From positions 1 through 34,522 of the forward strand of contig CAIPPE010000017.1 of the NCBI GenBank assembly GCA_903866825.1: a stretch of 34,522 bases of DNA, given 5' to 3'. The notes below the pieces were generated by a model. The model saw nothing but the letters and a program-made list of their open reading frames with translations. It made no database searches and was not told the DNA's origin. The position numbers were made by a program, and so were the translations under genes. Positions 2,770 through 34,522 of the stretch are shown in pieces; position 1 is the first letter of the stretch; the number at the start of each line of letters is the position of its first letter. The stretch comes from an uncultured Methylococcaceae bacterium. GTDB lineage: Bacteria; Pseudomonadota; Gammaproteobacteria; Methylococcales; Methylomonadaceae.

Positions 2770-2834
2770 TCACTCGTATGGAGTTAATCATAGCTCGGTT
2801 ATGGACGATTTAATGGCCGCCTAGGAGAAAGCGA

Positions 2835-5460: not shown

Positions 5461-5481
5461 ATAATATAGAACTCTTTTGAT

Positions 5482-5558: not shown

Positions 5559-5563
5559 TAAAC

Positions 5564-5640
5564 TGGTCGGGGTGGAGGGATTCGAACCCCCGACATCCTG
5601 CTCCCAAAGCAGGCGCGCTACCAAACTGCGCTACACCCCG
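5564..5640 (-). tRNA. tRNA-Pro (TGG)
   Basis: 77 bases with encoded CCA. The acceptor stem CGGGGTG pairs with CACCCCG, and the anticodon loop TTTGGGA is closed by CCTGC/GCAGG, giving anticodon TGG. It is first in the three-tRNA cluster. Confidence 0.96.
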
Positions 5641-14279: not shown

Positions 14280-15999
14280 GTCGCTTTTCTGTCAATTGTT
14301 GTTCAACTGTCTGCAGTTGGGTATAAGGAATATTGAAATGATGCAACGCTGATAATTGCTCAGGTAACTGCAAAAGTTTTTGAGCAATCCCATCGAGAAA
14401 TAAGGTCTGTTTAACCGTATTAAGCTGCTGTTGTTTTAACTCATATTCTACTTTATGCATATAACTGCCGATGGCACTTTCAGTCAGCAGAGAGGTTATT
14501 GTTAACATGGCCGGTGCAAAAATCAAATCATGTACACCGATCCCCCCCATATGCAAGGTCAGAGCAATTGCTGCAGCATCGGCTGTCACACGTGTTGCAC
14601 GTAAACCATTTAACACAATGGGCTGTTCCTGAAGCTTGTAATATAAACGCTGGGCTGTTTTCTCAACATCTTGCTGAAAGTCAACATGATACATTTTTGC
14701 AATCGAACTGAATTCCTTTAAAAAATCTGGCCGTTGACGACGCAATAAGCTGTTAACTTCTTTCCACCAGGCCCGTTGATTATCTTCCTCCGCTTTATCC
14801 ATTAAACGATCAGTTAACTGAATAAATAAATGCTCGGCGATTTGATTTAATAACACCAGCTCCTGGCTGCTATCCGCAATATGCTGCCTTTTTTTTCCAA
14901 GATTCATCATCTTTCGTATCGGCCAGGTGAGTACCTTACGCGCTCCCGTTAATACACCGGCCAAACCTGGAATTTCCAACAAGGTCAATAATTCTGCCAA
15001 GGCATGCTGAAAGGTTTCATAATGCCGTGGATGATTAAGATAATCCCGCTGATAATTTTCTAAAGCCTGCTGAATAGCGACATCCACCATGTCATGCCAG
15101 GCACTCGCCGCATGATGCTCAGCAATAACGGGTTCTAACCAACTCTGCCAATATTTCTTGACTAACTCCTGCTCATAACGGGGTTGTTTCTTGTAATTGA
15201 TTTTACTGGCCAGATCTCGGAGTAAGTTTTGCTTGGCTTCTGGCCAAACAGGTAAGCCGGTTTGGCGTTGATAATATAAGGGGACCACATCAGGAAAGTT
15301 ATCGCTTCTTGCCAACTGCCATTTTTCTTTCAAGGATTCAATCAATATCGCTTCAGACCCTTCGCTCAATTTATTCAAACAAATAATAGTCGGTTGATGA
15401 AGCGCTTCAAGCACAGACATCATCTCCCAGACAGATTGATCGGCGTATTTTTCTTTACTGACAACCAATATAACAATGTCCGCCAAGGCGATTGCTCTTA
15501 GTACACCTTCTTTATAAACCCCTGAATCAATAGAATCAAAATCAGGTGTATCCCAGAGGATACCTGAAGGTAAATAGCGAGAAGCTGAGCTGACTTCAGT
15601 TAATGAAAAACAATCATACCGTTCTCTGTTTAAGGCGAGTTGTTGAACCTGTTGAAAACGCCCAAAATAGCGTTGTAAGTCTTGACACTCAGTCGGCGTT
15701 ATTTCATTACAAAACCCTTGAGCATGAATAGTATGCCCAGCCAACGGACTAACGCCAGCCGCATGAGTGTTAAGTAATACATTAACCAGGGTACTTTTAC
15801 CTGCCTGAGTTGGGCCGATTATAGCCAGCTGCAACGGTTGCGCGGATGATCTGTTAATCAACTGGCCTTTACGCATAAAAGCTTCTGCTAACGTCAACTG
15901 TTCAATACGTTGTTGATAGCTCATTCTACCGACTTCGCTACCTAGTTGACTCAACATTATCTGGTAACGCTGATTTAATAATTGAATAAATTCCAGCAT
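14260..15999 (-). CDS. Membrane-associated P-loop GTPase (dynamin/YfjP-like), first of a pair
   Basis: 579 residues. G1 is GPTQAGKS (62-69), G3 is DTPDFDS (150-156) and G4 is NKLSE (209-213). The long helical region after the G domain ends in hydrophobic stretches (about 483-520, including IFAPAMLTITSLL), then a helical tail. The same D-x-P-D-F-D-S signature in its neighbour shows the two are diverged paralogues. It is first in the operon and is divergent from a lipoprotein gene. It has no recognised assigned role; membrane remodelling or stress are possibilities only. Confidence 0.75.
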   Translation of the reverse strand: MLEFIQLLNQRYQIMLSQLGSEVGRMSYQQRIEQLTLAEAFMRKGQLINRSSAQPLQLAIIGPTQAGKSTLVNVLLNTHAAGVSPLAGHTIHAQGFCNEITPTECQDLQRYFGRFQQVQQLALNRERYDCFSLTEVSSASRYLPSGILWDTPDFDSIDSGVYKEGVLRAIALADIVILVVSKEKYADQSVWEMMSVLEALHQPTIICLNKLSEGSEAILIESLKEKWQLARSDNFPDVVPLYYQRQTGLPVWPEAKQNLLRDLASKINYKKQPRYEQELVKKYWQSWLEPVIAEHHAASAWHDMVDVAIQQALENYQRDYLNHPRHYETFQHALAELLTLLEIPGLAGVLTGARKVLTWPIRKMMNLGKKRQHIADSSQELVLLNQIAEHLFIQLTDRLMDKAEEDNQRAWWKEVNSLLRRQRPDFLKEFSSIAKMYHVDFQQDVEKTAQRLYYKLQEQPIVLNGLRATRVTADAAAIALTLHMGGIGVHDLIFAPAMLTITSLLTESAIGSYMHKVEYELKQQQLNTVKQTLFLDGIAQKLLQLPEQLSALHHFNIPYTQLQTVEQQLTEKRHGLRLL

Positions 16000-20439: not shown

Positions 20440-20745
20440 TCAAATTAATTCTGACGTGTTTCTAATTGTTTCCATCCACAAGATTCTGCTCAGTTCTGAG
20501 GCAATAGTGAGTGATAGCTTCACTGCATGTGAGCTTGGTTCATCGATCAACTCAATGAGTTGAGGGTAGCAGTCCATTAATTAAGTGATCACAATACTGA
20601 GTCCAAGTTCGGGATTGTGATAACAAGGCTTATCAAAGAAAAACATCCGGTTCGCTCTGATAAGTTCATAAGCCAATCCTAAAAAAGCAAATCGTTGGCA
20701 TTCTTCAGTTTTAGCAATGGGTAACAAGGCTTCTAGGTTCATCAT
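20440..20745 (-). pseudogene. Small hypothetical gene interrupted by an in-frame stop
   Basis: Reading down the minus strand from ATG 20745, 54 codons (MMNLEALLPIAKTEECQRFA, continuing FLGLAYELIRANRM) end in TAA at 20581-20583. The same frame then continues for 46 more codons (LMDCYPQLIELIDEPSSHAV and on, ending TSELI) to TGA at 20440. Both halves look protein-like, so a single gene with a nonsense mutation is likely. Two short ORFs, the second with its own ATG, are the alternative. I do not recognise the family. Confidence 0.35.
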
Positions 20746-20789
20746 GTATCTCTATTATTAGTAAGTGAATTAATGTATCGGCCTGGGGG

Positions 20790-21725
20790 TTATGCAGAAT
20801 AATGTCCCCAAATGAGCTCTTCTCGCTGATAGGAGGCAGAAACCCAGCGCGAGTTTTGAACATCAAACAAGGTCAGCCCAAATTCAAAACAATCTTCGTC
20901 GTCATCGTTATATTCATCGAGATTTAGAGATACGTAGGCACCGGTATCTATACAAAGATGTGATAACACTTGGCTGGGGGATGTGGCATAAGTATGTCCA
21001 CAGAAAGTGGTTGATAGCCCACGTCTTACTTTAGGACTATTCAAGCGTTTTAACATCAATGTCCGTCCCCACAGCAGTGACTGCTCAACTTCAGAAGGAA
21101 TGCTCTGTTCTTCATGCCAGCGATCGATATCGCTATCAAACCAAGCGACTTTTTCAAGAGATTCATAATTCGTACTGATTAGTTCAGCATGGATTACATG
21201 GAAACGGTTAGCTCCTTCACCCACACTATATATAAGTGGCATTTCCCTAATCAGGGCAAGACCGCGATCGAATTCGGCAGACATGCATTGTTGATCCGCT
21301 TGGTAATAGGCTCTTACCCAATTGCCACCATAATCTAAAAAGCCTATGCCATTCACATCCTCAAGCTGCTTTAATTTACCATTAATTAAATACGGTAAAA
21401 AGAACTCCATCATCATTGTTTCGTGGTTCCCACGTACTGCATAGAACCATGGTTCTTCAAGTAATTGCAGGCAGCGTAATGAATCTGGGCCACGATCTAT
21501 TAAATCACCCACTGAGAACAGTCGATCCCGGCTTTTATCGAATTGCACTGCCTCCAACAAAAGTTCTAACAGGCTAAAACAGCCATGAAGATCACCTACG
21601 ACATAGTCTTTACCTTGACTATTAGTGGGCAATTTTCGGATTGATGTATCGTTATTCATAATGTTATCTATGGGCTGATAGAGATGTTTACTGTGTGCAG
21701 CTATATTAAAAAACATTCGCGACAT
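20790..21725 (-). CDS. PPP-family metallophosphatase (PrpA/ApaH-like)
   Basis: 311 residues. The calcineurin/PPP signatures are complete: GDLHG (44-48, metal ligands D45 and H47), GDLIDRG (73-79, D74), GNHE (99-102, N100 and H101), H179 and the late GHT (about 251-253). These enzymes remove phosphate from proteins or split dinucleoside polyphosphates; the length and the VGDLHGCFSLLE pattern are closest to bacterial PrpA/lambda-type and ApaH-like members. The start has no clear ribosome site; an internal ATG at codon 23 is possible. The gene is divergent from the helicase, and its start region holds two copies of the island's operator repeat, one overlapping the start codon. Confidence 0.87.
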   Translation of the reverse strand: MSRMFFNIAAHSKHLYQPIDNIMNNDTSIRKLPTNSQGKDYVVGDLHGCFSLLELLLEAVQFDKSRDRLFSVGDLIDRGPDSLRCLQLLEEPWFYAVRGNHETMMMEFFLPYLINGKLKQLEDVNGIGFLDYGGNWVRAYYQADQQCMSAEFDRGLALIREMPLIYSVGEGANRFHVIHAELISTNYESLEKVAWFDSDIDRWHEEQSIPSEVEQSLLWGRTLMLKRLNSPKVRRGLSTTFCGHTYATSPSQVLSHLCIDTGAYVSLNLDEYNDDDEDCFEFGLTLFDVQNSRWVSASYQREELIWGHYSA

Positions 21726-21734
21726 AGTAGGTCG
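21720..21734. promoter_or_regulatory. Island operator, site 1 (imperfect)
   Basis: CGACA-TAGTA-GGTCG, one mismatch to CGACA-N5-TGTCG. It overlaps the start codon of the phosphatase gene, 49 bases centre to centre from site 2. Confidence 0.5.
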
Positions 21735-21768
21735 TTAATGATCATTTATAAGTTTATAAAATATAAGT

Positions 21769-21783
21769 CGACATGTTATGTCG
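21769..21783. promoter_or_regulatory. Island operator, site 2
   Basis: CGACA-TGTTA-TGTCG, perfect arms, in the 244-bp divergent region between the phosphatase and the helicase. Extended by AAGT on the left, it matches the reverse complement of site 5 at 17 of 19 positions (AAGTCGACATRTTRTGTCG). Confidence 0.72.
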
Positions 21784-21969
21784 CATGACTTGGTTATGAT
21801 AATGATATTAACAAGACCAAGAGGTGCAATGCTTTTATCTTCAAGATGATTAAATATTGGCTCTTACCCTTGTTGACAGTTATTTTGTTTTTATGCTATT
21901 AGCTTCAGACTATGCACTAATGGATTAAAGAGTACCGACCCCGTAAATTTTTAATATTTGGATAAATAT

Positions 21970-24900
21970 ATGAGCCTTAATACATACTTTGAAAAAAATG
22001 GATTTTTACCCAATCCAGCCCAATATAAAGCAGTGGATCGCGTTAATGGACCGCTAATGTTGGTTGCAGGGCCGGGTTCTGGTAAAACACGAGTACTACT
22101 ATGGCGCACTTTCAATTTAATTGTTTTTCACAACGTCCAGCCACGAGATATTTTTCTTAGCACCTTTACTGAAAAAGCGGCCAGACAGCTTAAAGATGGT
22201 CTGCTGACTTTACTTGGAAGTGTGCCGGACCGATATTTTGATACTTCAGAAATGTATGTGGGTACAGTGCATTCCTTGTGTAGACGGATTTTGACAGACA
22301 GACGGTTTAATCCATCGGGAACACCTGCACCAGAATTGATGGATAAAGTGGAGCAGTATTTTCATGTTTACAACAGTCAGTTCTGGTTAAAGCAAAGCAA
22401 AACTGATGAAGATGTAGTTAATGAATTAAAGCCGGCTGGATGGGGGCAATCCAAACGTCATCGTGCTACGACTGGACTCATTTCATTATTCAATAGATTA
22501 TCAGAAGAATGTATAGATTCTGCTGGTTTTACCAATAAAGAACCATTTCTAGGTGGTATGTATCAAGACTATCTCGATAGCCTAAATAAAGTAAACAAAA
22601 CCGATATGTCAATGCTCCAACAAAAAGCTTTAGACATTTTAAAAAACAACACAGATGAAAATGTCGCTTTTAAATATCTTTTGATTGACGAATACCAAGA
22701 CACTAATACTGTACAAGAGCATATATTCTTTAATTTAGCAGCTAAAACTAAGAATCTATGCGTAGTGGGCGATGATGACCAGGCTCTTTTCCGTTTCCGT
22801 GGAGCTACCGTTGAAAACTTGGTTCGGTTTCAAAAGAGATGTTCTCAAGAATTGGGCATAACACCTTGCAGAATTGACCTAAATATAAACTATCGCTCAT
22901 GTCCACAGATTGTGGAGTTTTATAATCAGTTCATTATTACCGATACAGCACTACAACCTTATCGAGTACCTAACAAAACAATTACCGCTAATAGAACATG
23001 CGATCATACTGCAGTTGTCGTTACGTCTTCAGATAACGACCTTGACCGTTGCGAGGAGATTGCTGTTTTAGTTAAAACATTACTGGATAGCAAAAAGGTT
23101 GCTGACCCTAACCAGATTGCTTTTCTTTATCCGTCGGTAAAAAGTCCATTAGCAAAATCCATGATTGATGCGCTTGCAAAGCAAGGCTTACCAGTCTATT
23201 CGCCCCGCTCTGGACTGTTTTTGGATTGTGAAGAAGCGAAACTAATTTTTGGATTAATGCTTCAAGTTTTAGGAAGACCTGATGAATATGAAGGAGGTGG
23301 TGCTTTTAAAAAATTCAATGACTGGCTTGATCAGTGCGAGTACGCCGCTCAAGAAATCACCTCTGCTGAAGACGATGAAGTCGTCAATGAATTAAAAAAA
23401 CTGATAGCGTCAAGAAGAAACGAGCTTAATAACTTAGGCAATAACCAAGCGACAGATTGGAACTTACTTGATCTTTTTTATCAATTTTGTTCAATAGAGC
23501 CTATCAGTACTTGGTTAACTGAAGCAGAACTAGGTGGTGATGAAGGTCCAATCTGTAATTTGAGTTTGATTAGCCAATATCTGTTCCGCTATCAACAAAT
23601 GAACAATCTTTCAGTGATCCAAGGCAGTGATTATGGTGTCAGTGGTAATTCACTCAGAAATAGTTTCTTTAATAGTTATCTTTATGGCTTATACCGCCTT
23701 GAAGAATCCGAATATGAAGATAGCGAAAATCCGTTTCCCAAAGGCAGAATTCCGTTCCTGACCATTCATCAAGCCAAAGGCTTAGAGTTTCCGGTTGTGG
23801 TGTTGGGAAGTATAATTCCATTCTCAAACCAAGTAACTCAGGTAGAAAAATTGGCAAGGTCAATGTTACCCATAGCCGTTGCGCAAAACCTCGAACCACT
23901 AACGCTAATTGGCGAGTTCGATGCCATGCGCATGTTCTATGTTGCTTTGTCTCGTGCAGAAAACCTGCTAATTATTTCCAACACCCATAAGAAAGACGCA
24001 AAAGATAAACGCCATCCTGGGATAAAATCTTTGTTGGATAACGGTATAAATGGAATAGCTATTTGTAAAATAAAGAAATTAAAATTGGCTAAGTTACCCA
24101 CTGCAAATAACACCCCAAAAACACTTCCCAAAATCTATTCTTACACAGCGGATTATCAATATTACTTGGCCTGTCCACGACAGTATATGTTGTTTAGAAA
24201 ATACGGCTTCGCGCCATCCCGTACCCGCACTATGGCTTTCGGTATTCTGGTGCATAAAACCATTGAAGATATTCATCGTGGGCTGATTACTGCAAGACAA
24301 ACTAATACATTGCATGCTTTTAAGAATGGGATGACAGCTTTCATCAAATATCGTTTTGACGAAAACTATCAGGTATTAAGTAAACAAAGTTCACATAAAT
24401 TGGCTCCACACACGCTTGTTGCTGCTCATGATCAAGTGGTTCATTATTGGAATAAATTAAGTGACTTAGCTCAAACCATTACCGATACTGAAGTACCGTT
24501 GACTCTGCCGAGTCAGACAACACCTAATGGAATCATCTATTCTTTACATGGCGTGGTTGATATGGCTAAGGAAGTGGATGGTAATCAATCACATTTGTAC
24601 GACATCAAGACTCATGATGCGTACTTGGTAAGAGACCATTCAAGCTATTATCAGGAACAACTCAATGTCTACGCTCATATTTGGCAGACATTACACGGCC
24701 AATCACTTTCTGGTACATCTATTATTGCCACTAGACCTCCCTCCAATACCAATGCACTTAACGCATGGAACCCAGTTGTTCCTCTACCATTCAATTCAGA
24801 GGCAGTAGCTGTAACAATGAATCATTTTGGACAAGTTGTTGATTGCATTGAAGAGCGTAAATTTCAGCCACGAGCTATCGCAGACTTGCCAGTTACCTCA

Positions 24901-26670
24901 GAAGACGAAAGAGGTTCCTTATTCGATGAAGTCTGTTCATATTGTGATGGACGCTTTTCGTGTAGTAGTTATGCTGGCTATTTGGAACTGAATCCCGATA
25001 AAAAACCAGTCGATAAGCCTATTACCGCACCTATTAATTCAGATTATTCAGAAGCTGCATTTGAAAAGTTGGGGCATCTTTATTTGGAGCCAGACAAAGA
25101 ACAGTATCTTTCTGATCAACATGTAGAAAGGTTTATTCAATATTTGTCGGATATGGTAAGTGATATTAATCAACCATTAAATCATTGCTACTTAGTAGAA
25201 CCAGTGAATCAGCATTTTTTCGATGATCAAATAGGAAAATGTGTTCATTATCATACTATTAAAGACGCTTTTGATGGCTATGCTTGGAAAAAACAAAATT
25301 ATGCAGATAACAAATCCATTTTAGAGGGTATCGCGCATAGCTTAAAAACCGCCACAACAGAAAATGATCTCTATCAAGCCTGCCTAGATTGTCTTGAATG
25401 GGGAGCCGGTGGCAAACAGTTTACGCTTTACACGGCAAATCGGGATTGGCTCTGGGTTAAAAAAAGTCAAACTCAGTTATCAACACTTTTTAATGATTCA
25501 CATGCTCAATTATCAAATCCACATCCAGACTTGAAAGGTTTTAAACATAAGCTTTATAGAATGAATTCTGGTTTTACCAAGATTTATGCACTTAAATATA
25601 ACAACTTTATTATTTACGATAGTCGTGTTGCGGCTGCATTAGGCTTGTTGGTTCGTCGTTATTGCCAAGATAATGGGCTAAATCAAGTCCCCGCTAATCT
25701 TGCTTTTCACTGGAGTGGTTCAAAAAAACGTAATCCAAGTATGGGTAGTCATCAATTTAGGAAACTGAATGATAATTCTAAAAAACATGCGGAATGGAAT
25801 ATAAAAGCAAATTGGGTTTTAAATGCGGTGGTGGCAGAAGTAGCAAGCACAGCAGAAAATAAAGAAATTCCATTTTGGGGAGTATCTAAAAATGAGAGCT
25901 TACGAGCCTTGGAGGCCGCCTTGTTTATGATTGGTTATTCAGTAGTACCACCATCTGCTTCGCCTACTACAATCAGCATTCCATTAACGCCTCCTGCTAA
26001 CTTACCAGACGTAGAAGATTATGATGAATCTCATGAATATACAAGTTTAAATACTCTGAGAGGGAATGGGGCGGCTATTTTATATACTGGTAATCTGGTA
26101 GACGGTTTAACTATTGAATGGGGAAAGACCAGATTTCAATTAGATGCAGATGATTTATCAAAACTATTAATAAGATTTACAGGTAAAAGTGATATACCAT
26201 TAGGCTCTAAAATGGATGGTCCAGGAAATGCACAATCATTAGGTTATTTTATAGATCAAGAAATAATTACTGGACGAAGATACGCGTCTGCAATTGCTCC
26301 AATACTTAAGGCAGAAGGTTTTATAGTTAATGTTAGGCACGGGCAAGGTTTCAAATTAGACTTTGCTTCTAGTGAATTTTTACAAGATTTATTTGAAAAC
26401 CATGATAAGCAAAATGACTCTGCTGAAGAAGTTCAAAATCACGACAATTCTTTAATTCAACATGTAACACAAGATACAGAATTGCCAGAAATAATTAGGG
26501 CAAATTCTGATATATTTAAAAGACGTGCGATGGAACTCTGTACCCAAGCAAATATGACTCAAAAGAAAGCAATTCAAGAGGCCGCAAGAGAACTAAACGT
26601 AAGTTTAAAGCCGTCACACACAAAGTATCCTGGCAGTTACTTTCATGCTTGGCGTCTCGAGGGCTTTTAA
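21970..26670 (+). CDS. UvrD-family helicase fused to an AddB/Cas4-like Fe-S nuclease, with a long C-terminal extension
   Basis: 1566 residues from ATG 21970; a TTG at 21958 would add four. Residues 1-680 form an SF1A helicase: Walker A GPGSGKT (34-40), Walker B DEYQD (240-244), GDDDQALFRFRG (267-278), TIHQAKGLEFPVVV (598-611) and YVALSRAE (657-664). Residues about 720-1000 form a RecB/AddB-type PD-(D/E)XK nuclease with H762, D864, D878-x-K880 and Q897xxxY901. C735 and C989, C992, C998 probably hold a 4Fe-4S cluster. Residues about 1090-1330 contain MNSGFTKIYALKYNNFIIY then DSRVAAALG, which recalls OGG-fold-like proteins (from memory). The last 250 residues are unknown. This is far longer than UvrD-nuclease proteins. 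It is predicted to unwind and cut DNA, in defence or repair. Confidence 0.9.
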   Translation: MSLNTYFEKNGFLPNPAQYKAVDRVNGPLMLVAGPGSGKTRVLLWRTFNLIVFHNVQPRDIFLSTFTEKAARQLKDGLLTLLGSVPDRYFDTSEMYVGTVHSLCRRILTDRRFNPSGTPAPELMDKVEQYFHVYNSQFWLKQSKTDEDVVNELKPAGWGQSKRHRATTGLISLFNRLSEECIDSAGFTNKEPFLGGMYQDYLDSLNKVNKTDMSMLQQKALDILKNNTDENVAFKYLLIDEYQDTNTVQEHIFFNLAAKTKNLCVVGDDDQALFRFRGATVENLVRFQKRCSQELGITPCRIDLNINYRSCPQIVEFYNQFIITDTALQPYRVPNKTITANRTCDHTAVVVTSSDNDLDRCEEIAVLVKTLLDSKKVADPNQIAFLYPSVKSPLAKSMIDALAKQGLPVYSPRSGLFLDCEEAKLIFGLMLQVLGRPDEYEGGGAFKKFNDWLDQCEYAAQEITSAEDDEVVNELKKLIASRRNELNNLGNNQATDWNLLDLFYQFCSIEPISTWLTEAELGGDEGPICNLSLISQYLFRYQQMNNLSVIQGSDYGVSGNSLRNSFFNSYLYGLYRLEESEYEDSENPFPKGRIPFLTIHQAKGLEFPVVVLGSIIPFSNQVTQVEKLARSMLPIAVAQNLEPLTLIGEFDAMRMFYVALSRAENLLIISNTHKKDAKDKRHPGIKSLLDNGINGIAICKIKKLKLAKLPTANNTPKTLPKIYSYTADYQYYLACPRQYMLFRKYGFAPSRTRTMAFGILVHKTIEDIHRGLITARQTNTLHAFKNGMTAFIKYRFDENYQVLSKQSSHKLAPHTLVAAHDQVVHYWNKLSDLAQTITDTEVPLTLPSQTTPNGIIYSLHGVVDMAKEVDGNQSHLYDIKTHDAYLVRDHSSYYQEQLNVYAHIWQTLHGQSLSGTSIIATRPPSNTNALNAWNPVVPLPFNSEAVAVTMNHFGQVVDCIEERKFQPRAIADLPVTSEDERGSLFDEVCSYCDGRFSCSSYAGYLELNPDKKPVDKPITAPINSDYSEAAFEKLGHLYLEPDKEQYLSDQHVERFIQYLSDMVSDINQPLNHCYLVEPVNQHFFDDQIGKCVHYHTIKDAFDGYAWKKQNYADNKSILEGIAHSLKTATTENDLYQACLDCLEWGAGGKQFTLYTANRDWLWVKKSQTQLSTLFNDSHAQLSNPHPDLKGFKHKLYRMNSGFTKIYALKYNNFIIYDSRVAAALGLLVRRYCQDNGLNQVPANLAFHWSGSKKRNPSMGSHQFRKLNDNSKKHAEWNIKANWVLNAVVAEVASTAENKEIPFWGVSKNESLRALEAALFMIGYSVVPPSASPTTISIPLTPPANLPDVEDYDESHEYTSLNTLRGNGAAILYTGNLVDGLTIEWGKTRFQLDADDLSKLLIRFTGKSDIPLGSKMDGPGNAQSLGYFIDQEIITGRRYASAIAPILKAEGFIVNVRHGQGFKLDFASSEFLQDLFENHDKQNDSAEEVQNHDNSLIQHVTQDTELPEIIRANSDIFKRRAMELCTQANMTQKKAIQEAARELNVSLKPSHTKYPGSYFHAWRLEGF

Positions 26671-26688
26671 TAGATTGATTATCAAACG

Positions 26689-26724
26689 ACCAACTCCTAA
26701 TGATTTGTTTATCCAAAAGTTGGT
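26689..26724. repeat. Inverted repeat in the leader of the unknown gene
   Basis: ACCAACT and AGTTGGT are perfect 7-bp arms 22 bases apart, in the 103-bp gap between the helicase and the next gene. It could be a weak transcript-end hairpin or an operator; there is no T-run. Confidence 0.3.
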
Positions 26725-26773
26725 AATAGTAATTCTGATGAAAAATTAGCAAATTGTGGAAAACTAAAAAACC

Positions 26774-27682
26774 ATGAAACTTAAAAACTTGTTGATAGGC
26801 AAAACAGAGCAGACTCAGCAATCTCTCAATGAGTTTTTTTCTGGAATTGATGAAGAAAAAATCCTATGGTATCCCAGTGCAGGAAAAGATTATCGGGATT
26901 TAATGGAGATCACTCCAGAAAGATTGGCCTTGCATGGTATTTCTGAGCAACCCAATATTGTATGTCATACAGATTACAATCAAAGTTGGACAGGATTAGA
27001 TAAAGATATGCTACCAATGATTATTCATCAGCATGCGCGTACTACAATTAAGATAATGGAAAAGATTCCATTGTCTTTTGCACCTAATATTAATATTCAT
27101 TTTCGGATAAGGGATACCCATGTAAGTAGTCGTGTTAACGAAGTTGGCGAAACGTCTATTTACTTATTAAAGCTAAAAATTATTTCTGATACGCTGGGTG
27201 AATTTGATGTTCAGATGTTTTATTTTATGTTTGAAAATTACAACTTTCTTGAAGAGCTTATTCTAAAAAACAAACTGGCAATTACTCATTTTGTAAAAGT
27301 CAGACAGGGCTGTGGTTTTGGCGGATGCAGGAAATGTATTTCCGTGTTTTACAGTCTTCTTGGAAATATCGGTGTTAAATATTTACTGGTTGATAGCGAG
27401 GTGCATTTTTGTCATGAAACACACGCCCGATTAACGAGTCAATTTTGCATCAAGCATAAAAATTATGAATTGATTTCCATTGGGATTCCTCTCAAGTGGA
27501 GTGGTTACGATGTGAGAGCGTTCAAAGTCGAGACGCGCCCAGGATATCTGGATAATGAGACTTTAAACATCAATTTAGCCCAAATAGCAGAAGGGTGGAG
27601 CCAAGAACCGTGGAAACCTCAACAGTTCTTTGCTAATTCACCACATCAAATTATTCCCCATAGTGCTTCGTCATGCCTATAG
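26774..27682 (+). CDS. Unknown Cys/His-rich protein with a WYPSAGKDYRDL motif
   Basis: 302 residues. I do not recognise a named family. The N-terminal motif ILWYPSAGKDYRDL (about 30-43) occurs in uncharacterised proteins with a Rossmann-like start. The middle holds a cysteine cluster (C180, C185, C188 in QGCGFGGCRKCIS) and then H211, C213 and H214, which could bind a metal. It follows the helicase on the same strand at 103 bases. Its 3' end overlaps the 3' end of the WYL gene on the other strand by 32 bases. Position suggests that it is a component of the same system. Confidence 0.7.
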   Translation: MKLKNLLIGKTEQTQQSLNEFFSGIDEEKILWYPSAGKDYRDLMEITPERLALHGISEQPNIVCHTDYNQSWTGLDKDMLPMIIHQHARTTIKIMEKIPLSFAPNINIHFRIRDTHVSSRVNEVGETSIYLLKLKIISDTLGEFDVQMFYFMFENYNFLEELILKNKLAITHFVKVRQGCGFGGCRKCISVFYSLLGNIGVKYLLVDSEVHFCHETHARLTSQFCIKHKNYELISIGIPLKWSGYDVRAFKVETRPGYLDNETLNINLAQIAEGWSQEPWKPQQFFANSPHQIIPHSASSCL

Positions 27683-28670
27683 CGATACCAGCTATTTTTT
27701 GGCGAAGCTCAATGGGTTCAAGTACTTCCACTTTATCGCCGAAGCCTAACAACCACCACGTCAATTGTTGCGTGTCAGCTAGAGTAGCCGTCACCAGAAC
27801 TCGACCTTTATCGTAAGGCTCTATAGTCTGATCAAGCGAGAGCCGAGTATCTTCTAAATGCTTGGCCGTTTCGGACATAAATGCAACCTTCAATTTAAGC
27901 ATTTTTCCTTGCCCAAAGCCGAGTTGCCCGCTATTGATAAATGCCTGTAAATCAAAGTTTTCTGGGCGTTGTGAAGGTGCCGCTAATGCCTCAGCAAAAT
28001 GAATCCGGTGCATGAGTCGTAAGCGGATCGTCGTAAGGTCGTTGACGGCGGCTGCGATTAAGTAGATGAGTCCGCCTCTGGACACCATGCCCAGTGGGTG
28101 TACGATTCTTTCTTCTGGCGTAACTTGCTCCCGATTTTGATAAAGAATTCGTAGTTGCAGGTTGTTTAATAAAGATTCCGAAACCACTTGCTGTACGGTA
28201 GCATCAATGACAGGGGGTAATAACGGTTGAGAGGAGGGTACTGATGCTATTTTGTCTGGCCATTCTTGTAAATGGCTTTTATTCAAGGATTGAAGCTCCC
28301 GTTCCGCTTGTTCAAAGAAAGGCTTTAGGTGCGCCAGAACTGAAACCGGCATTAAATCAGTCAGATGCTGTTTTACTAATTTAAAGGTTAAGGCTTCGGT
28401 CGCCGAGATTGAAGGTAAGCATAAGGCGCTTGCACTTTCTAGCCAGAACCAACCAGCTGGTTTAGCCCCATCATCATCTATCGGAAATACTTCCCCTAAC
28501 TTCTTCAGATCTCTTTCTATAGTTCGTCGGGAAGTTTTAAAACTCTCATTTTTTAGATAATCATGGAGGTCATTGATACTGATTCTTCGGGGATAGCGGG
28601 GCAGTTTTCTTAGCAGATGCCAATGTCGCAAGAGTGTATGTTTGGCATTTGGCTTTTTTTGGACGATCAT
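27651..28670 (-). CDS. WYL-domain transcriptional regulator (HTH-WYL-WCX)
   Basis: 339 residues. The N-terminal winged helix (about 14-60, RRISINDLHDYL then SRRTIERDLKKLGE) is the DeoR-like HTH typical of WYL regulators. The WYL domain spans about 150-235 (LRILYQNREQVTPEERIVHP, GMVSRGGLIYLIAAAVND), with IYL in place of WYL. The WCX-type C-terminal region ends near LLGFGDKVEVLEPIELRQKI. The same organisation in BrxR and CapW represses phage-defence operons and binds inverted repeats. An operator-like repeat lies 62 bases upstream, so autoregulation is likely. It is probably the regulator of the surrounding island. Confidence 0.88.
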   Translation of the reverse strand: MIVQKKPNAKHTLLRHWHLLRKLPRYPRRISINDLHDYLKNESFKTSRRTIERDLKKLGEVFPIDDDGAKPAGWFWLESASALCLPSISATEALTFKLVKQHLTDLMPVSVLAHLKPFFEQAERELQSLNKSHLQEWPDKIASVPSSQPLLPPVIDATVQQVVSESLLNNLQLRILYQNREQVTPEERIVHPLGMVSRGGLIYLIAAAVNDLTTIRLRLMHRIHFAEALAAPSQRPENFDLQAFINSGQLGFGQGKMLKLKVAFMSETAKHLEDTRLSLDQTIEPYDKGRVLVTATLADTQQLTWWLLGFGDKVEVLEPIELRQKIAGIAIGMTKHYGE

Positions 28671-28731
28671 CGTTCTGCAACCCTAAGAAGTTTTAGTGGA
28701 TGTTTATTATCTACTTTTACTGGATTGTATT

Positions 28732-28746
28732 CGACACATATTGTCT
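28732..28746. promoter_or_regulatory. Island operator, site 3 (imperfect)
   Basis: CGACA-CATAT-TGTCT, one mismatch to CGACA-N5-TGTCG, in the 161-bp divergent region between the WYL regulator and the small NG-rich protein gene. Confidence 0.58.
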
Positions 28747-28831
28747 GCTCACCCTATATCCTTTGCTAGTCGTTCAAAATAAGTTTAATTAATTAAACAG
28801 ACACCCATCTTTTTATATTCTGGAGCTCAAT

Positions 28832-29038
28832 ATGATTTTACAAAGTATTAAAACTCGAAACGGCACGACACTCGCTCATATTATGGATAAAGGGAATGGC
28901 GTTCAGTGTATACAAAACGTGAATGGTACTGTTTTAGGTTGGTATCGACCTTCAGCTACCGGTGGCAGAACGACCGATCGCAATGGAAATGTCATTGCTC
29001 AAGGTAATGCACTTGCATCGTTGGTGACTGATTTATAG
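28832..29038 (+). CDS. Small NG-rich protein, possibly a beta-flower-type domain
   Basis: 68 residues with spaced turn motifs: TRNGTTLAHIMDKGNGV, NVNGTVLGWY, and TTDRNGNVIAQGNALASLV. The regular N-G turns with alternating hydrophobics recall the small 4-fold beta-flower domain (from memory). A ribosome site GGAG precedes the ATG. It sits in a divergent arrangement with the WYL regulator across an operator-like repeat, and 23 bases before the HD hydrolase gene, so those two genes probably share a transcript. Function unknown. Confidence 0.6.
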   Translation: MILQSIKTRNGTTLAHIMDKGNGVQCIQNVNGTVLGWYRPSATGGRTTDRNGNVIAQGNALASLVTDL

Positions 29039-29061
29039 TAATTTTTTAAGGTCTATTACGC

Positions 29062-29610
29062 ATGAGTTTAAATATCTTTATCTCCACCTTTTTAGGTAAT
29101 AGCTTCTATCCTCAAAATCCTCGCGTTGAAGACATCGATATTGAAGATATTGCCCATGGTCTAGCTTATACCTGCCGGTTTAATGGGCAAACGACAGCAT
29201 TTTATTCGGTAGCTCAGCATTCTTTGATGGTCGCAGATTTGGTGGCTGATGAATTAAAGCTGGAAGCGCTAATGCACGATGCGGCTGAAGCATATTTGGG
29301 GGATGTCGTAAAACCTTTGAAAGCCTTATTGCCGGAATACAATGTCATCGAAGCACACGTGAGCAATATTATCGCGACAGCCTTTAATCTGGGTGATTGT
29401 GGTCACCCTGCTATTAAACGCGCTGATTTGATAGCGTTGGCTACAGAAAAGAGAGATCTTATGCCAAACTCCGTCGAACCCTGGGTTTACTTGGCCGGAA
29501 TTGAAGAGCTGCCTATACCGCTAAGCCCCATGTCACCTCAGGAGGCTAAGCTTGCGTTTATGAAGCGCTTCACTGAATTACAATCAAGCAGGGCAATCTT
29601 TAAATTTTGA
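29062..29610 (+). CDS. HD-domain phosphohydrolase (YfbR-like)
   Basis: 182 residues. The HD-superfamily metal residues are H53 (AQHSLMVAD), H72-D73 (MHDAAEAYLGDVVKP) and D122 (ADLIALATEKRD). The AYLGDVVKPLK segment and the length resemble YfbR-type nucleotidases and phage-associated HD hydrolases, which dephosphorylate 5'-deoxynucleotides. A role in nucleotide depletion or signal turnover fits an island with a phosphatase and a helicase-nuclease, but this is inference. It overlaps the toxin gene tail-to-tail by 11 bases. Confidence 0.86.
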   Translation: MSLNIFISTFLGNSFYPQNPRVEDIDIEDIAHGLAYTCRFNGQTTAFYSVAQHSLMVADLVADELKLEALMHDAAEAYLGDVVKPLKALLPEYNVIEAHVSNIIATAFNLGDCGHPAIKRADLIALATEKRDLMPNSVEPWVYLAGIEELPIPLSPMSPQEAKLAFMKRFTELQSSRAIFKF

Positions 29611-29986
29611 TAATGGTGTCGCTATAAACTGCAACTAATGAATCATGAGTCATTAAGCGCATGGGTTCTACCAGCGCTTGTGCCACTAATATTCGATCAA
29701 ATGGATCATGATGATGGAGTGGTAAATCTTCAACGGCAATAGCGTGTTCTGCCTCAATAGCAAGGAAGCGATAGCCTGCTTCGTTAAAATAACGCATCGC
29801 ATCTTGGCCAGAAATGGGCATATCTCCTTTACCAAGAGCATGTTTTATAGCAATTTCCCATATATTTGCAGCGCTGACCCATACATTGTTTCTTGGTGAA
29901 AGTATAAGTTCACGTGCTTTTTGTGATAACTTGGGATTATCTGTAATAGCCCAAAGTGCCACGTGAGTATCCAGTAACAGATTCAA
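29600..29986 (-). CDS. PIN-domain toxin (VapC-like)
   Basis: 128 residues. PIN-domain acidic residues D6 (LDTH), E44 (NIWEIAIK), D97 (DPFDRILVAQA) and D115 (THD) are present. PIN toxins cut RNA, in most studied cases tRNA or rRNA. It is encoded directly after the antitoxin with a four-base overlap. The subgroup with LLLDTHVALWAI and DPFDR is the one paired with Phd/YefM-type antitoxins, as here. It is intact by sequence. Confidence 0.9.
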   Translation of the reverse strand: MNLLLDTHVALWAITDNPKLSQKARELILSPRNNVWVSAANIWEIAIKHALGKGDMPISGQDAMRYFNEAGYRFLAIEAEHAIAVEDLPLHHHDPFDRILVAQALVEPMRLMTHDSLVAVYSDTIIKI

Positions 29987-30234
29987 GACTGAGCCTCGCC
30001 GACAAATAATTTAGCGACTTCATCATTATAGGTATCGATGTCATCAGGTACTTCAAAGAGTCCTTTTGCAATACCTATTCGATTGTTAGCGGACGTAACA
30101 TTAATAGGAACTAGTTTTGCCACAGGGCGACCATTTCTGGCTATAATAATTTCACGCTCTTTACCTTGTTCAATACTTTCGACTAGACGTGACAATGAAG
30201 ATTTAGCTTGTAACATATTAACGGTCGTTTGCAT
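29983..30234 (-). CDS. Phd/YefM-family antitoxin
   Basis: 83 residues with the Phd N-terminal DNA-binding pattern (NMLQAKSSLSRLVESIEQGK, then EIIIARNGRPVAKLVPI) and an acidic C-terminal tail that would bind the toxin. It binds its own promoter and neutralises the PIN toxin. Ribosome site AGGA eight bases before the ATG. The pair lies between the HD hydrolase and an unknown gene and is read against both. Confidence 0.9.
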   Translation of the reverse strand: MQTTVNMLQAKSSLSRLVESIEQGKEREIIIARNGRPVAKLVPINVTSANNRIGIAKGLFEVPDDIDTYNDEVAKLFVGEAQS

Positions 30235-30271
30235 GGTGATATCCTATAAAAAGTCTTAGTCTAGTCTGGCT

Positions 30272-30289
30272 AACTTGTTAAATCAAGTT
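30272..30289. promoter_or_regulatory. Inverted repeat upstream of the antitoxin gene
   Basis: AACTTG-TTAAAT-CAAGTT, perfect 6-bp arms, 38 bases upstream of the antitoxin ATG. It is a candidate operator for the antitoxin. The sequence AGTCTTAGTCTAGTCT between it and the gene is a short imperfect direct repeat. Confidence 0.4.
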
Positions 30290-30417
30290 GATAGTTGTAC
30301 AGGTGTATCAGCACGTAAACGCCTTGATGATCTTGGTTATAAAGCAAAATAATATCCTCAAACATTTTTTAACTAGAAGTATTCAAACAAATTAATTAAA
30401 TTATTAGGAAGAAAGTT

Positions 30418-31068
30418 ATGGCATTGCAAGACGAAATTAGACGAGTGATTAATGAACGATTACTTCCACTGAACTGGACTATACAGGACCTTATTGATAA
30501 TCAAAATTTACTTAGAAGAGCAAATGGGGAACCATACACACTTAACACTATTCAAACTTTGCCATACAATAGATCAGACAGTTTACCTGATCTCGATTTA
30601 GGTATTGGTAACCATGTTAATAATGGTCAGTCAGTTCTTTTTTACCGTGTAGATATAACGGCGGATGGACAATTAATATTTGCGCTACCTGAGCATGTAA
30701 ACCAAGAAGAACATTTGACCCATCTTGGTAACCTAACAAATATGTTACTCATTAAGAAAATTGAAGAGTGGAAGAAATATCCAAATGCACTAGGATCTGA
30801 ATCCCAAGTGGCAGTGTTGCTTGGCGAATTATCTTCTTTTCTTAATGAACCAATTCCAGATACAGTACTTTCAGCACTTAAAATATTATCACTGCGTGGC
30901 ACTATGCGTGATATTGCATCTGCTATTCAACGTGAACGTTTTAACCCAGATATTCCATCTTTTCATGATGTGGTTGATACCGCAGCTATTTCTTGTGGGC
31001 TATCTTGGACGGAAGCTCTAACAATTATAGTTACCTATCTTGAAGAGAAAAAGCGTGATCTGTCTTGA
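30418..31068 (+). CDS. Hypothetical protein
   Basis: 216 residues, good ribosome site (AGGAAGAAAG) and start. No signal peptide or membrane segment is apparent. The N-terminal half has mixed hydrophobic and charged sequence (VLFYRVDITADGQLIFALPE) and the C-terminal half is helical (LSALKILSLRGTMRDIASAI). I do not recognise a family. It lies between the toxin-antitoxin pair and the sirtuin gene and is on the sirtuin strand. Confidence 0.65.
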   Translation: MALQDEIRRVINERLLPLNWTIQDLIDNQNLLRRANGEPYTLNTIQTLPYNRSDSLPDLDLGIGNHVNNGQSVLFYRVDITADGQLIFALPEHVNQEEHLTHLGNLTNMLLIKKIEEWKKYPNALGSESQVAVLLGELSSFLNEPIPDTVLSALKILSLRGTMRDIASAIQRERFNPDIPSFHDVVDTAAISCGLSWTEALTIIVTYLEEKKRDLS

Positions 31069-31155
31069 CAGCTATACGCTTAACTTTGATTTGATTATGG
31101 ATAAATATGCAAACGATATGTAATTCGTAAAGCGTTATCAAAAATAAAGGTTTTT

Positions 31156-31908
31156 ATGAAATTCAATGAGACTGTGATTAAGCGTTTAAGACAGGCCGAA
31201 ACTATCGTATTTTTTACTGGGGCGGGTATTTCCCAAGAAAGCGGTATACCGACATTTAGGGACGGTGCGAAAAGCCTATGGAAAGATTTTGATCCTGATA
31301 TTTATGCCAGTGTCAATGGCTTTGATAATGATCCCTCAAAAGTTTGGCAATGGTATGCAGAACGCCGCCAACAAGTAAGAGTTCTGGAACCCAATCGTGC
31401 TCATTTTATTATTGCCGATTGGCAACATAAAGCCCCTCACGTGACGGTGATTACCCAGAATATTGATGGTTTTCATCAACGCGCAGGGAGTCAGAATGTT
31501 ATTGAGTTACATGGCAGTATTGCCAGAAACCAATGTCGCAAAAACGGGCATCGGTTTCCGCATGATTTTGATCATCCCACCCAGCAACCGCCTAATTGTC
31601 CTGAATGTAATAGTCTGTTAAGGCCGGATGTCGTGTGGTTTGGAGAAAACTTACCCGAAGAAGCCTATTCTCAGGCCGAGATGAAGAGTTTTAACTGTGA
31701 CGTCCTTGTCAGTATTGGTTGTTCGATGGAGGTTTTCCCCGCCGCAAGTCTACCTTACAATGCCGCTCGTTGTGGTGCTTATCTGATTCAAATAAACACC
31801 CAGGCAACGGATTTAGATACAGTGGCCGAATGTAATTTTCAGGGTAAAGCCAGTGAAGTTTTATCGGCATTATGGTGTGCGGTTTGGAATAGTGATGTTG
31901 AAGCTTAG
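31156..31908 (+). CDS. Sir2-family NAD-dependent deacylase (sirtuin)
   Basis: Uses NAD to remove acyl groups from lysines, or may hydrolyse NAD. 250 residues. GAGIS (22-26), TQNID (100-104) and catalytic H119 (ELHGS) are intact. Y67 and R70 (WYAERR) match the YxxR pair of desuccinylase-type (class III) sirtuins such as CobB. Zinc ligands are incomplete: C127 and the late pair C148 and C151 are present, but the second cysteine of the first pair is not at CxxC spacing. It converges on the AAA ATPase gene with 11 bases between. Sirtuins occur both in metabolism and in several anti-phage systems, so its role here is open. Confidence 0.9.
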   Translation: MKFNETVIKRLRQAETIVFFTGAGISQESGIPTFRDGAKSLWKDFDPDIYASVNGFDNDPSKVWQWYAERRQQVRVLEPNRAHFIIADWQHKAPHVTVITQNIDGFHQRAGSQNVIELHGSIARNQCRKNGHRFPHDFDHPTQQPPNCPECNSLLRPDVVWFGENLPEEAYSQAEMKSFNCDVLVSIGCSMEVFPAASLPYNAARCGAYLIQINTQATDLDTVAECNFQGKASEVLSALWCAVWNSDVEA

Positions 31909-31919
31909 AAAACGTGACG

Positions 31920-34097
31920 TTAAATAAACCCAATACTACCAAACTCTTCACCTTTAGCGATACATTCTTGTTCTAAGATACTCAACATAGTGTGTAGGGC
32001 TAAAGGTTCAACTTGATATCGAGCCTGCCTATTTAACACCGCAAAGTCACCGGGTGTTAACTGGGTGAGGCGTTCGATTTGATTTTTAAGTGTGTTTAGC
32101 TCAGCTATATCCTTTGGGAGTTGTGCGCCTAATCGCAGGCTTTCTTGTTGGAATAACCCCCAGCGTTGTTCTGCCTTAAGATAATCAAACTTCACTTTGA
32201 AATCGAATCGACGCAATGACGCAGCATCCATTCTCTCCATTAAGTTAGTGGTGCAGATAAAAATACCTTCAAATTGTTCCATTTGCGTGAGCATTTCGTT
32301 TACCTTAGACACTTCCCAGTTATGACGGGCATCGCAGCGATCACCTAGTAAACTGTCTGCTTCATCTAAAAGCAATATCGCACCTTCACGATTCGCTTCT
32401 CGAAATATATCAGCTATATTCTTCTCGGTTTCGCCAATATATTTATCCAGAATATCAGAGGCACGCTTAATTAATATCGGTAAGCCTAATTGCTCGGCAA
32501 GGTGTTTGGCGAATGCACTCTTCCCTGTGCCGGGAGCGCCATAAAAACAGAAAGTACCTTGTGGTTTATGGTTCAATCCAGCCAATAATGTTTTGAGCGG
32601 AATCGTGGTGTTAGTAAAAGATAAGTTATAACCGGTTACTGGCCGATGCCGACTGATCGACAGGGGGCGTTTGAATAAGTGAATATGACTGTTCAAAACC
32701 TGTTCCATAATAAGTTCAGTGCTCATTCCAATATCAGAATTATTCAGTTCAGCAATCTTGGCCGCTTTGTTGATCTGATTAAGCGGGATATCAGTGTGCT
32801 TTACTAATTGTTGACGCCAGGTATCACTGATTGATAATGCTTGGGTGGCTCTCGATATTTGTTTATGGCGCAAGGCCTCCGGCATTTTGTCTAGCTCAAG
32901 TGCATAGTCAAAGCTGCGTAAGCAATCATATTCGATTGATCTGGGTGTATCTATAATCCAGATGATGGGTAACGGGTTATTACAAAATTGTTGTTTCATT
33001 ACTCTTAGGTTGATGCCGCTGACTATTGCCTCCTCTTCAAATAGATCGGATGACCACTTTTTCGACAGCACGTCGTCTGCTGCATCCAGAACAATAAGAG
33101 CGGATTTGTTTTTTTTGTTTAGCCAATACTGGGTAAGTTGGCAAGCTGCGAAACGATCTTCGGGTTCAAGATGAGACTGGTTAGGATGATTATGTGCCAC
33201 TTCATAAAGTGGAACCCCAACGCATTTTGCCAATAAACGGGCTAGCTCCCATTTACTTTGATTCTGTTTGCCATAGATCACCACGTTGACGCCCGCTTGC
33301 CGACTTTCTAATGTAGCTTGCAGATAGGGTATAAGCACATCCAGATCATTTTGAAGCAGCGGAAAGTCATGGGCTTGTAACGAGCCAGGTTTCAGTTGTT
33401 TGAAAAAAATTCTACGGAGCGCTTCTAGTGAAGGTTGTTCATCAAATAGCGTAAACAGAATAGTGGGAGGAACGACCAAGCGAGAAACATCCAGGGTTTC
33501 ATTTACATTCAACCAGCCAATTTGACATAAGGGACTGGCCGAATCTAAGCATTTTTCTAATTCTTCAATCGGGCGGGTGGTCATGATCCGTAGATAATCC
33601 ACTATAAACGCTTCATGACTTAATTCACAGTAGCTAGAAATATAACCATTAAATTTTTTAATACCGGCCATCAACAGACTTAATACAAGTAGCTCCTGAT
33701 CACATTCAGAAAGTTCTAGTTCAGTTGCCAGCCATTGGACATTTTTAAAGAGAGGCGTATCAATTTGCATGCCCTGTGCTAACAACTCGTTTAATCGATC
33801 TTTAATATGTTTGTAAAGCGTCGTTGTGCTGCGAGGGGGCCGAAAGTCCTCTAAATATGGATCAATACTTCTAGACGATTTACGGGGTGTTAGTCCGGTT
33901 AACTCATTGAGATCCTGATGGAATAACTCTTCCATAGCGGTGGCAGGCAGCTTGTTTTTAAGACCTATAACCAGGCGTAACAGATAAATAGCTATTAATG
34001 GTTGGTAAGGGGCATGTTTTGAGACGAATTTATGTTGTATGCTGGGAGTTTTACATACAAAATCAGGCAGTTGCTTGGTTTGGGTGCTAATGGTCAT
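31920..34097 (-). CDS. Tandem AAA ATPase with degenerate first ATPase domain
   Basis: 725 residues from ATG 34097. This start has GAGGAG seven bases upstream; a TTG at 34112 overlaps that ribosome site. The C-terminal AAA domain is complete: GAPGTGKS (520-527), pore loop KYIGE (552-556), ILLLDEADS (574-582), sensor asparagine N618 (TTN) and arginine finger R629/R630 (LRRFDF). The first domain (about 260-410) has a broken P-loop, GKQNQSKWEL, and a Walker B-like ALIVLDAADD, so it probably does not hydrolyse ATP. About 250 N-terminal residues are helical with no known domain. It resembles CDC48-like protein remodellers. Two operator-like repeats lie upstream. Confidence 0.88.
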   Translation of the reverse strand: MTISTQTKQLPDFVCKTPSIQHKFVSKHAPYQPLIAIYLLRLVIGLKNKLPATAMEELFHQDLNELTGLTPRKSSRSIDPYLEDFRPPRSTTTLYKHIKDRLNELLAQGMQIDTPLFKNVQWLATELELSECDQELLVLSLLMAGIKKFNGYISSYCELSHEAFIVDYLRIMTTRPIEELEKCLDSASPLCQIGWLNVNETLDVSRLVVPPTILFTLFDEQPSLEALRRIFFKQLKPGSLQAHDFPLLQNDLDVLIPYLQATLESRQAGVNVVIYGKQNQSKWELARLLAKCVGVPLYEVAHNHPNQSHLEPEDRFAACQLTQYWLNKKNKSALIVLDAADDVLSKKWSSDLFEEEAIVSGINLRVMKQQFCNNPLPIIWIIDTPRSIEYDCLRSFDYALELDKMPEALRHKQISRATQALSISDTWRQQLVKHTDIPLNQINKAAKIAELNNSDIGMSTELIMEQVLNSHIHLFKRPLSISRHRPVTGYNLSFTNTTIPLKTLLAGLNHKPQGTFCFYGAPGTGKSAFAKHLAEQLGLPILIKRASDILDKYIGETEKNIADIFREANREGAILLLDEADSLLGDRCDARHNWEVSKVNEMLTQMEQFEGIFICTTNLMERMDAASLRRFDFKVKFDYLKAEQRWGLFQQESLRLGAQLPKDIAELNTLKNQIERLTQLTPGDFAVLNRQARYQVEPLALHTMLSILEQECIAKGEEFGSIGFI

Positions 34098-34147
34098 GGC
34101 TTTACTCCTCAATGAAAGACGATGAAGCCAATGATACAGACCAGTGT

Positions 34148-34162
34148 CGACAGATCGTGTCG
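34148..34162. promoter_or_regulatory. Island operator, site 4
   Basis: CGACA-GATCG-TGTCG, perfect arms, 51 bases upstream of the AAA ATPase start and 62 bases centre to centre from site 5. Confidence 0.7.
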
Positions 34163-34209
34163 TTTATTAACGCGGTTATTTGAAGCTTAACTTAATGTTA
34201 TTAATAAAA

Positions 34210-34224
34210 CGACACAATATGTCG
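34210..34224. promoter_or_regulatory. Island operator, site 5
   Basis: CGACA-CAATA-TGTCG, perfect arms, in the divergent region between the AAA ATPase and the partial gene at 34293. On the reverse strand the extended site matches site 2 (AAGTCGACATRTTRTGTCG). Confidence 0.72.
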
Positions 34225-34292
34225 ACTTGTTATGGATAATTAACCTCTCTAACTATTTTTAACGAAGTTTGTTGCTTAATGAGTGAATGACT

Positions 34293-34522
34293 ATGAGAAC
34301 ACCCAATTTTAAAACCTTGATTGCGGAAACCGATCAGAAAGGCTTTTATTCGTTAATTTGTGAAGCTTCATTCATGCATCCTAATCCAAGATATTATAAA
34401 TATTACTGGTGGATTTTTTGGCAAGGAAGTACGTGTGACGGCCTAAAGTTTCTAAGCAAAAAAAATCGATTATCAACAAAGACGGCATTTGATTTGATTG
34501 AAAAGTTGAAAAGGGATAGGCA
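34293..34522 (+). CDS. Partial gene, unknown, runs off the window
   Basis: An open frame from ATG 34293 to the window end, at least 76 residues, beginning MRTPNFKTLIAETDQKGFYS. It contains an aromatic-rich stretch (RYYKYYWWIFWQGS) and LSTKTAFDLIEKLKRDR, which resembles a substrate-binding rather than membrane region. Not recognised. It is divergent from the AAA ATPase across two operator-like repeats, so it is probably part of the same regulon. Confidence 0.6.
   Translation, partial: MRTPNFKTLIAETDQKGFYSLICEASFMHPNPRYYKYYWWIFWQGSTCDGLKFLSKKNRLSTKTAFDLIEKLKRDR

Follow-up and report, generated by a model that had tools for sequence, protein, structure and literature searches.

A palindromic box before genes of a WYL-AAA island in a Methylococcaceae genome and its likeness to the sites of the activator DriD

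In the excerpts available of the papers cited throughout, WYL regulators known from phage-defence loci act as repressors, and the ones that activate are DNA-damage regulators (PMC10693628). The repressors BrxR and CapW bind longer palindromes, located at the promoter of the operon that includes the regulator gene itself. The activator DriD of Caulobacter crescentus recognizes the consensus ATACGAC(X)7GTCGTAT. In promoters with poor hexamers its sites lie over the -35 position, at a constant distance to the -10 element; its signal is single-stranded DNA (ssDNA) bound in the WYL domain, and at the promoter region that driD shares with a divergent operon, this operon is activated and driD itself is not (PMC12340889). 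Since a response to ssDNA is ascribed to CapW and BrxR as well (PMC13373217), an ssDNA trigger cannot separate an activator from a repressor. Here we analyse a stretch of 34,522 bases (the window), the whole contig C17 of a 4.28-Mb draft genome of an uncultured Methylococcaceae bacterium, which carries an island of genes with a WYL regulator and a short inverted repeat, CGACA-N5-TGTCG. We judge it probable that the repeats (core CGAC-N7-GTCG) are binding boxes of DriD-type WYL activators and that the WYL protein switches on this modular, putatively defence-type island.

Copies of the repeat and promoter geometry

Three exact copies of CGACA-N5-TGTCG are found in the window, at 21769, 34148 and 34210, compared with a mean of 0.02 and a maximum of 1 in shuffled sequence, and three further copies, at 21720, 28732 and 24178, have one mismatch. 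A first-pass annotation of this DNA had listed five copies and held them to exceed chance. The observation is confirmed in its positions and its excess, and its list lacks one site, the one-mismatch copy at 24178-24192 within the coding sequence of a UvrD-like helicase. Copies with two mismatches are not unusual (10 versus a mean of 7.6, with 25 of 100 shuffles reaching 10), so only exact or near-exact copies count as evidence. The three regions that hold the five boxes are all divergent: phosphatase (minus) and helicase (plus), WYL (minus) and an open reading frame (ORF) of 68 amino acids (aa) (plus), AAA (minus) and a 131-aa ORF (plus). The boxes, their -10-like elements (offset in bp past the box) and the flanking genes are the following.

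21720-21734, minus strand: box 1, CGACCTACTATGTCG read toward the phosphatase gene; exact CGAC-N7-GTCG core, one mismatch to CGACA-N5-TGTCG.
21703-21708: -10-like TAATAT of box 1, facing the phosphatase gene, offset 11.
21769-21783, plus strand: box 2, CGACATGTTATGTCG; -10-like TATGAT at 21795-21800, offset 11, toward the helicase gene.
28732-28746, plus strand: box 3, CGACACATATTGTCT; weakest of the five, second half-site changed.
28757-28762: -10-like TATCCT of box 3, facing the 68-aa ORF, offset 10.
34148-34162, minus strand: box 4, CGACACGATCTGTCG toward the AAA gene; -10-like TATCAT at 34131-34136, offset 11.
34210-34224, plus strand: box 5, CGACACAATATGTCG; GATAAT (looser first letter) at 34235-34240, offset 10, toward the 131-aa ORF.
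20790-21659, minus strand: metallophosphatase; probable start codon ATG 21659, with box 1 and its -10 both upstream of it.
21958-26670, plus strand: 1570-aa UvrD helicase carrying a PD-(D/E)XK nuclease domain; a candidate box 2 target, with some 170 bp from the -10 of that box to the gene start.
27651-28670, minus strand: WYL-WCX regulator, 339 aa, DriD-like; Pfam WYL 3.7e-9 and WCX 1.5e-17, both over cut-off.
28832-29610, plus strand: 68-aa ORF and dNMP-phosphatase-like 182-aa ORF; candidate targets of box 3.
31920-34097, minus strand: AAA ATPase, frequent partner of WYL; likely start, from the sequence, ATG 34097 and not TTG 34112.
34287-34522, plus strand: start of the 131-aa ORF, cut by the contig end, length taken from a copy on contig C19; candidate target of box 5.

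The core is exact in four of the five boxes and has one change in box 3. Complementary arm positions number 5 of 8 at the WYL-facing site; boxes 2, 4 and 5 have 5 or 6 of 8. A longer, 311-aa phosphatase ORF has its start at 21725, on box 1; the start codons favoured here, ATG 21659 for the phosphatase and ATG 34097 for the AAA ATPase, suggest that the boxes lie upstream of both genes, and a phosphatase gene at another locus, L057, has a box spacing similar to that of the window.

Exact copies are not numerous elsewhere in the draft genome; many equal matches away from island genes would, according to the first-pass annotation, have spoken against its regulon. There are six in all, three in the window and the others at C19:2212, C189:2576 and C267:12456. 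The C19 copy is a near-identical second copy of box 5, in a duplicate of window positions 34199-34522 (98.8%; 4 mismatches in 324 bases) that carries the box and the start of the 131-aa gene; the upstream DNA differs there and its ORFs look transposase-like by eye. This duplicate may be a duplicated part of the island or a strain variant with an insertion. The C189 copy lies inside a 325-aa ORF that looks, on inspection by eye and with no family search, like an ABC permease, and the C267 copy lies between two ORFs. The repeats could in principle be RNA hairpins such as terminators or attenuators, and a simple terminator scan does pick up three of the five copies. However, the stems have five to six pairs, the copies are upstream of genes on both strands beside -10-like hexamers and their central bases vary freely, so that we regard hairpins as hardly credible. 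The idea of a LexA box was dropped, as the repeat matches no LexA consensus known to us.

The boxes stand at a fixed distance from a -10-like element. Across 52 gene-facing sides, chosen by a mechanical rule with the window included, TAnnnT read toward the gene begins 11 bp past the box in 21, 10 bp in 7 and 12 bp in 3 (31 of 52 at 10-12), with a mean of 1.7 per offset; the count of 21 was reached in none of 5000 circular-shift permutations, and these sides, like the rows of the WYL-region, AAA and gene-placement comparisons below, include related genomes and are not independent (L060 and L115 are one locus twice). An earlier, hand-picked list had given TAnnnT at offset 11 on 14 of 26 promoter sides (0 of 2000 permutations). 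With this spacing the box centre coincides with the -35 position. Counted on both strands of every box, gene-facing or not, the best -35 match averages 2.04 (n = 53), compared with an average of 2.50 (n = 1264) at random TAnnnT. The region 20700-34522 has 24 sigma-70-like matches, and no box overlaps with any of them. This geometry was read from sequence. From box 3 toward the WYL gene, a -10 was looked for at the usual distance and none was found.

Four of the six matches to the composite pattern box-N11-TAnnnT in the window's own genome are at WYL/AAA loci (three in the window and one on contig C169); the other two, C19:4928 and C231:35523, are nearly one sequence, and C19:4928 lies in no reading frame longer than 80 aa. 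As a clean detector for whole genomes the composite was rejected on the counts given below.

Placement of the box in related islands and on plasmids

We took a gene to carry the box when the exact core lay no more than 150 bp before or 60 bp after its ORF start. In the fetched loci, window included, this was so for 14 of 27 AAA, 5 of 7 phosphatase and 2 of 10 SIR2 genes, 2 of 5 homologues of the 131-aa ORF, 2 of 43 WYL genes (4 of 43 with one mismatch allowed) and 14 of 413 other genes. Outside the window, the core was present at 21 of 83 AAA, WYL, phosphatase and SIR2 genes versus 14 of the 394 other genes (P 3.6e-9), and when four scrambled palindromes served as a control, they matched 0-1 of the same 83. 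The first-pass proposal of a regulon is thus sustained by comparative evidence, by which the repeat behaves like a regulatory element that goes with the WYL family and joins phosphatase, AAA and other island genes into a candidate regulon. Its proposal that the WYL gene regulates itself is doubtful, given these WYL counts, the weakness of the WYL-facing box and its lack of a -10 toward WYL.

The AAA ATPase of about 730 aa is often found with a WYL homologue (16 of 29 rows of fetched stretches), and the accompanying SIR2, phosphatase, helicase and nuclease genes vary. One may ask whether the boxes belong to another regulator common to such islands, with the WYL gene a mere neighbour: 3 of 13 AAA rows without a WYL gene in the stretch still keep the box, and several WYL paralogues share the same box, which blurs specificity. 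On the other hand, the exact core is more frequent at AAA loci that do have a WYL homologue (11 of 16 rows, of which two represent one locus), and a box that equals the DriD core goes with a DriD-like protein, which leaves this alternative quite improbable.

In a count over 35 genus genomes, exact copies of the motif are no more frequent than those of its reversed control (79 versus 72). Its copies do lie close to WYL matches: 10 of 75 listed copies are within 3 kb of one versus 0.2 expected, none of the ten from the window's own genome, in a count that used 75 of the 79 sites, 50 WYL matches (many partial), approximate gene positions and a total of 111 Mb. When all palindromes with 5-bp arms and spacers of 2-9 were ranked within 2.5 kb of 40 WYL homologues in related genomes, window excluded, CGACA with spacer 5, present in 8 of the 40 regions, shared first place with an AT-rich palindrome, and CGACA with any other spacer occurred in 1. 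No common longer repeat was found before 41 WYL genes in a scan for 8-bp arms. As to whether orthologous loci lack the repeat, it is present at the closest WYL relative (L037, 61%), where the WYL gene is divergent to an AAA gene and two copies, one exact and one with one mismatch, lie between them; yet an exact or one-mismatch copy stands within 350 bp ahead of the WYL gene itself in only 6 of 41 homologues, the window being one of the six. A scan of genome contigs with the WYL protein confirmed one relative, named as from an uncultured Methylococcaceae, and a profile scan of viral contigs confirmed none.

The window's own genome holds a second WYL and AAA locus on contig C169 (L070 2031-6119), where the AAA gene is preceded by the box CGACC-N5-TGTCG and, 11 bp past it, TATACT. 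A single regulator could serve both islands. Three other loci deserve mention. L057 (G034:C100) looks like a decayed island, in which short SIR2-, phosphatase- and UvrD-like ORFs lie beside full-length AAA, phosphatase and WYL genes and the boxes are retained. At L109 (G017:C3) and L111 (G030:C11), the AAA proteins are among the closest to that of the window (51-52%) and the boxes are one base off in the core; the fetched stretches of both hold no WYL homologue.

For plasmids, 9 of the 18 records with an AAA match were fetched, picked by hand (H61-H64, H68-H72). At six of the nine loci, AAA or WYL is preceded within 100 bp by an exact or one-mismatch copy, namely at those of Rhodoferax, Sphaerotilus (adjoining BREX-2 genes), Diaphorobacter, Pantoea, Thiodictyon and Pseudomonas luteola. 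Judged by these sequences, the box element occurs with the WYL-AAA module outside methanotrophs too.

A DriD-like regulator: activation or repression

In a profile search, the WYL family of the window protein matched DriD (8tp8, so named in PMC11804915) at 1.3e-14, PafC at 2.5e-9, PafBC at 1.4e-8 and BrxR of E. fergusonii (7qfz, so named in PMC9122601) at 0.0032, the last over the WYL domain only; four other WYL chains among the matches listed cover the same stretch, down to 3e-15. Neither CapW nor a further BrxR entry was recognised among the 11 sequences listed. By this comparison DriD is the closest solved relative of the protein. The window repeat is the inner core of the DriD consensus, as far as the available text of its description gives it, and box 3 is like the driD promoter in that its -10 points away from the WYL gene.

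Activation of the DriD type rather than repression is therefore the most likely mode of action. The WYL protein at 27651-28670, or a paralogue, would bind the box as a dimer across the -35 position of target promoters that have no -35 hexamer, with the box 10-11 bp upstream of the -10, and the bound protein would hold RNA polymerase there. The genes switched on would be those for the AAA ATPase, the phosphatase, the helicase-nuclease and their neighbours. The trigger is probably ssDNA from phage replication or DNA damage, filling the WYL pocket, and the island may have an antiviral purpose.

The first-pass annotation had instead likened the protein to the repressors BrxR and CapW. Such a repressor would block the promoters until a ligand removes it. 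The WYL regulators described in defence loci are indeed repressors (PMC10693628, PMC13373217). Both BrxR sites likewise have a 5-bp spacer, CapW sites overlap the -10, and a box over the -35 would block polymerase as well. However, the arms here have 5 bp versus 10-11, the regulator's own gene seldom has a box, box promoters with poor -35 elements and no overlapping sigma-70-like match leave little to repress, the -10 spacing is precise to one base, and DriD is far ahead of BrxR in the profile search. With the repeat equal to the DriD core and seated on the -35 position, we do not uphold the repressor and regard it as unlikely.

Several observations weigh against activation by the WYL protein. 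The protein that binds the box could instead be a paralogue or some other factor, because some AAA loci without a WYL gene keep the box, and in three of the nine plasmid loci (Methylomonas, Azospirillum, Leisingera) there is no box within 100 bp before AAA or WYL. The Pantoea plasmid copy adjoins a ribosome-binding-like site, a position that better fits a repressor. At the promoters, TAnnnT is missing from offsets 10-12 on 21 of the 52 sides, the poor -35 arises in part because the box letters are fixed, and genome-wide the composite pattern is only in slight excess (64 versus 52 for its control in 35 genomes). The outer ATA/TAT of the DriD consensus is absent from the flanks of the window sites. 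As for the protein, its DriD match is limited to the WYL-WCX half; its N-terminal part, where DriD-type activators have a winged helix-turn-helix (HTH) with a three-helix bundle, matched HTH_11 weakly, at 0.026, and found no WYL relative among solved structures, and the structure model is unusable (pLDDT 52.8, pTM 0.37; built on two sequences, window and L037). Rows in the comparisons partly come from related genomes.

More tentatively, and at somewhat less than an even chance, a DriD-like WYL protein and the AAA ATPase may form a mobile module of proteobacterial islands and plasmids that senses ssDNA and turns on mosaic defence islands as a whole; within a genome, several islands would share the code CGAC-N7-GTCG-N11-TAnnnT and act in trans as one inducible immune regulon. 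If true, a DriD-type activator code before defence-like genes would join the repressor and activator groups of WYL regulators and offer a readable promoter signature for finding immune genes that are induced, not derepressed. A literature search, with most subscription papers outside its reach, returned no description of DriD-type boxes at defence islands or of the WYL-AAA pair.

Other genes of the window and comparison with described WYL regulators

Two more genes belong to the island.

26774-27682, plus strand: DUF7663 protein; a 72% relative in G017:C3 is preceded by a one-mismatch box.
31156-31908, plus strand: SIR2 family protein; some relatives have a box upstream.

Unlike those relatives, the window SIR2 gene has no box upstream. 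The protein encoded at 29062-29610 is close to phage deoxyribonucleoside 5'-monophosphate phosphatases (phrog_318, 2.4e-71) and weakly YfbR-like in Pfam. In the AAA protein (31920-34097), the first domain has a degenerate Walker A motif, GKQNQSKW versus GPPGTGKT in the L037 relative, and the second has GAPGTGKS. Elsewhere in the window, a DUF4325-FlhD fusion comes after FlhD-like and FlhC-like genes (1894-3428 in all), farther downstream are an integrase (4351-5310) and three tRNA genes (5384-5640), and two adjoining large proteins with MMR_HSR1/dynamin-type GTPase domains are encoded on the minus strand at 12666-15999. PADLOC returned for the window genes generic helicase, AAA and WYL matches, weak SIR2 matches and nothing else. 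The defence label of the island is putative, with gene content and neighbours such as the BREX-2 genes on one plasmid as its basis.

In comparison with BrxR and CapW, the WYL repressors of BREX and CBASS, this locus likewise has a WYL-WCX regulator in a defence-type island, a palindrome with a 5-bp centre and a promoter location. It differs in that the arms have 5 bp, with no palindrome of 19-27 bp and about 10-bp arms at the window sites, and the promoters have a poor -35. Nor is there an operator of their type at the regulator's own promoter: the box is mostly not at the regulator's gene, and the WYL-facing site of the window is weak. The sequence match is weak for BrxR of E. fergusonii, and none was recognised for CapW.

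PafBC of mycobacteria, a WYL activator acting by sigma adaptation, is the second-best profile match and also activates promoters without an ordinary -35. However, it is a heterodimer or a fusion, has a non-palindromic motif at -26 and binds the promoter only with RNA polymerase; here a single 339-aa protein goes with a palindromic box, and the locus is not of the PafBC type. SiwR of Mycobacterium smegmatis is a WYL activator as well, with an imperfect palindrome between the -35 and -10 of a neighbouring operon, but its palindrome has 19 bp and it controls dinB-like genes.

DriD shares most with the locus: the site core CGAC-N7-GTCG, WYL and WCX domains, a site over a poor -35 at constant distance to the -10, and a divergent promoter that does not serve the regulator's own gene. 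In contrast, the outer site bases differ, there are several paralogues per genome here, and the response to ssDNA is putative in this island. The targets differ too, with didA, bapE, recJ and dnaG for DriD versus genes for an AAA ATPase, a phosphatase and a helicase-nuclease here.

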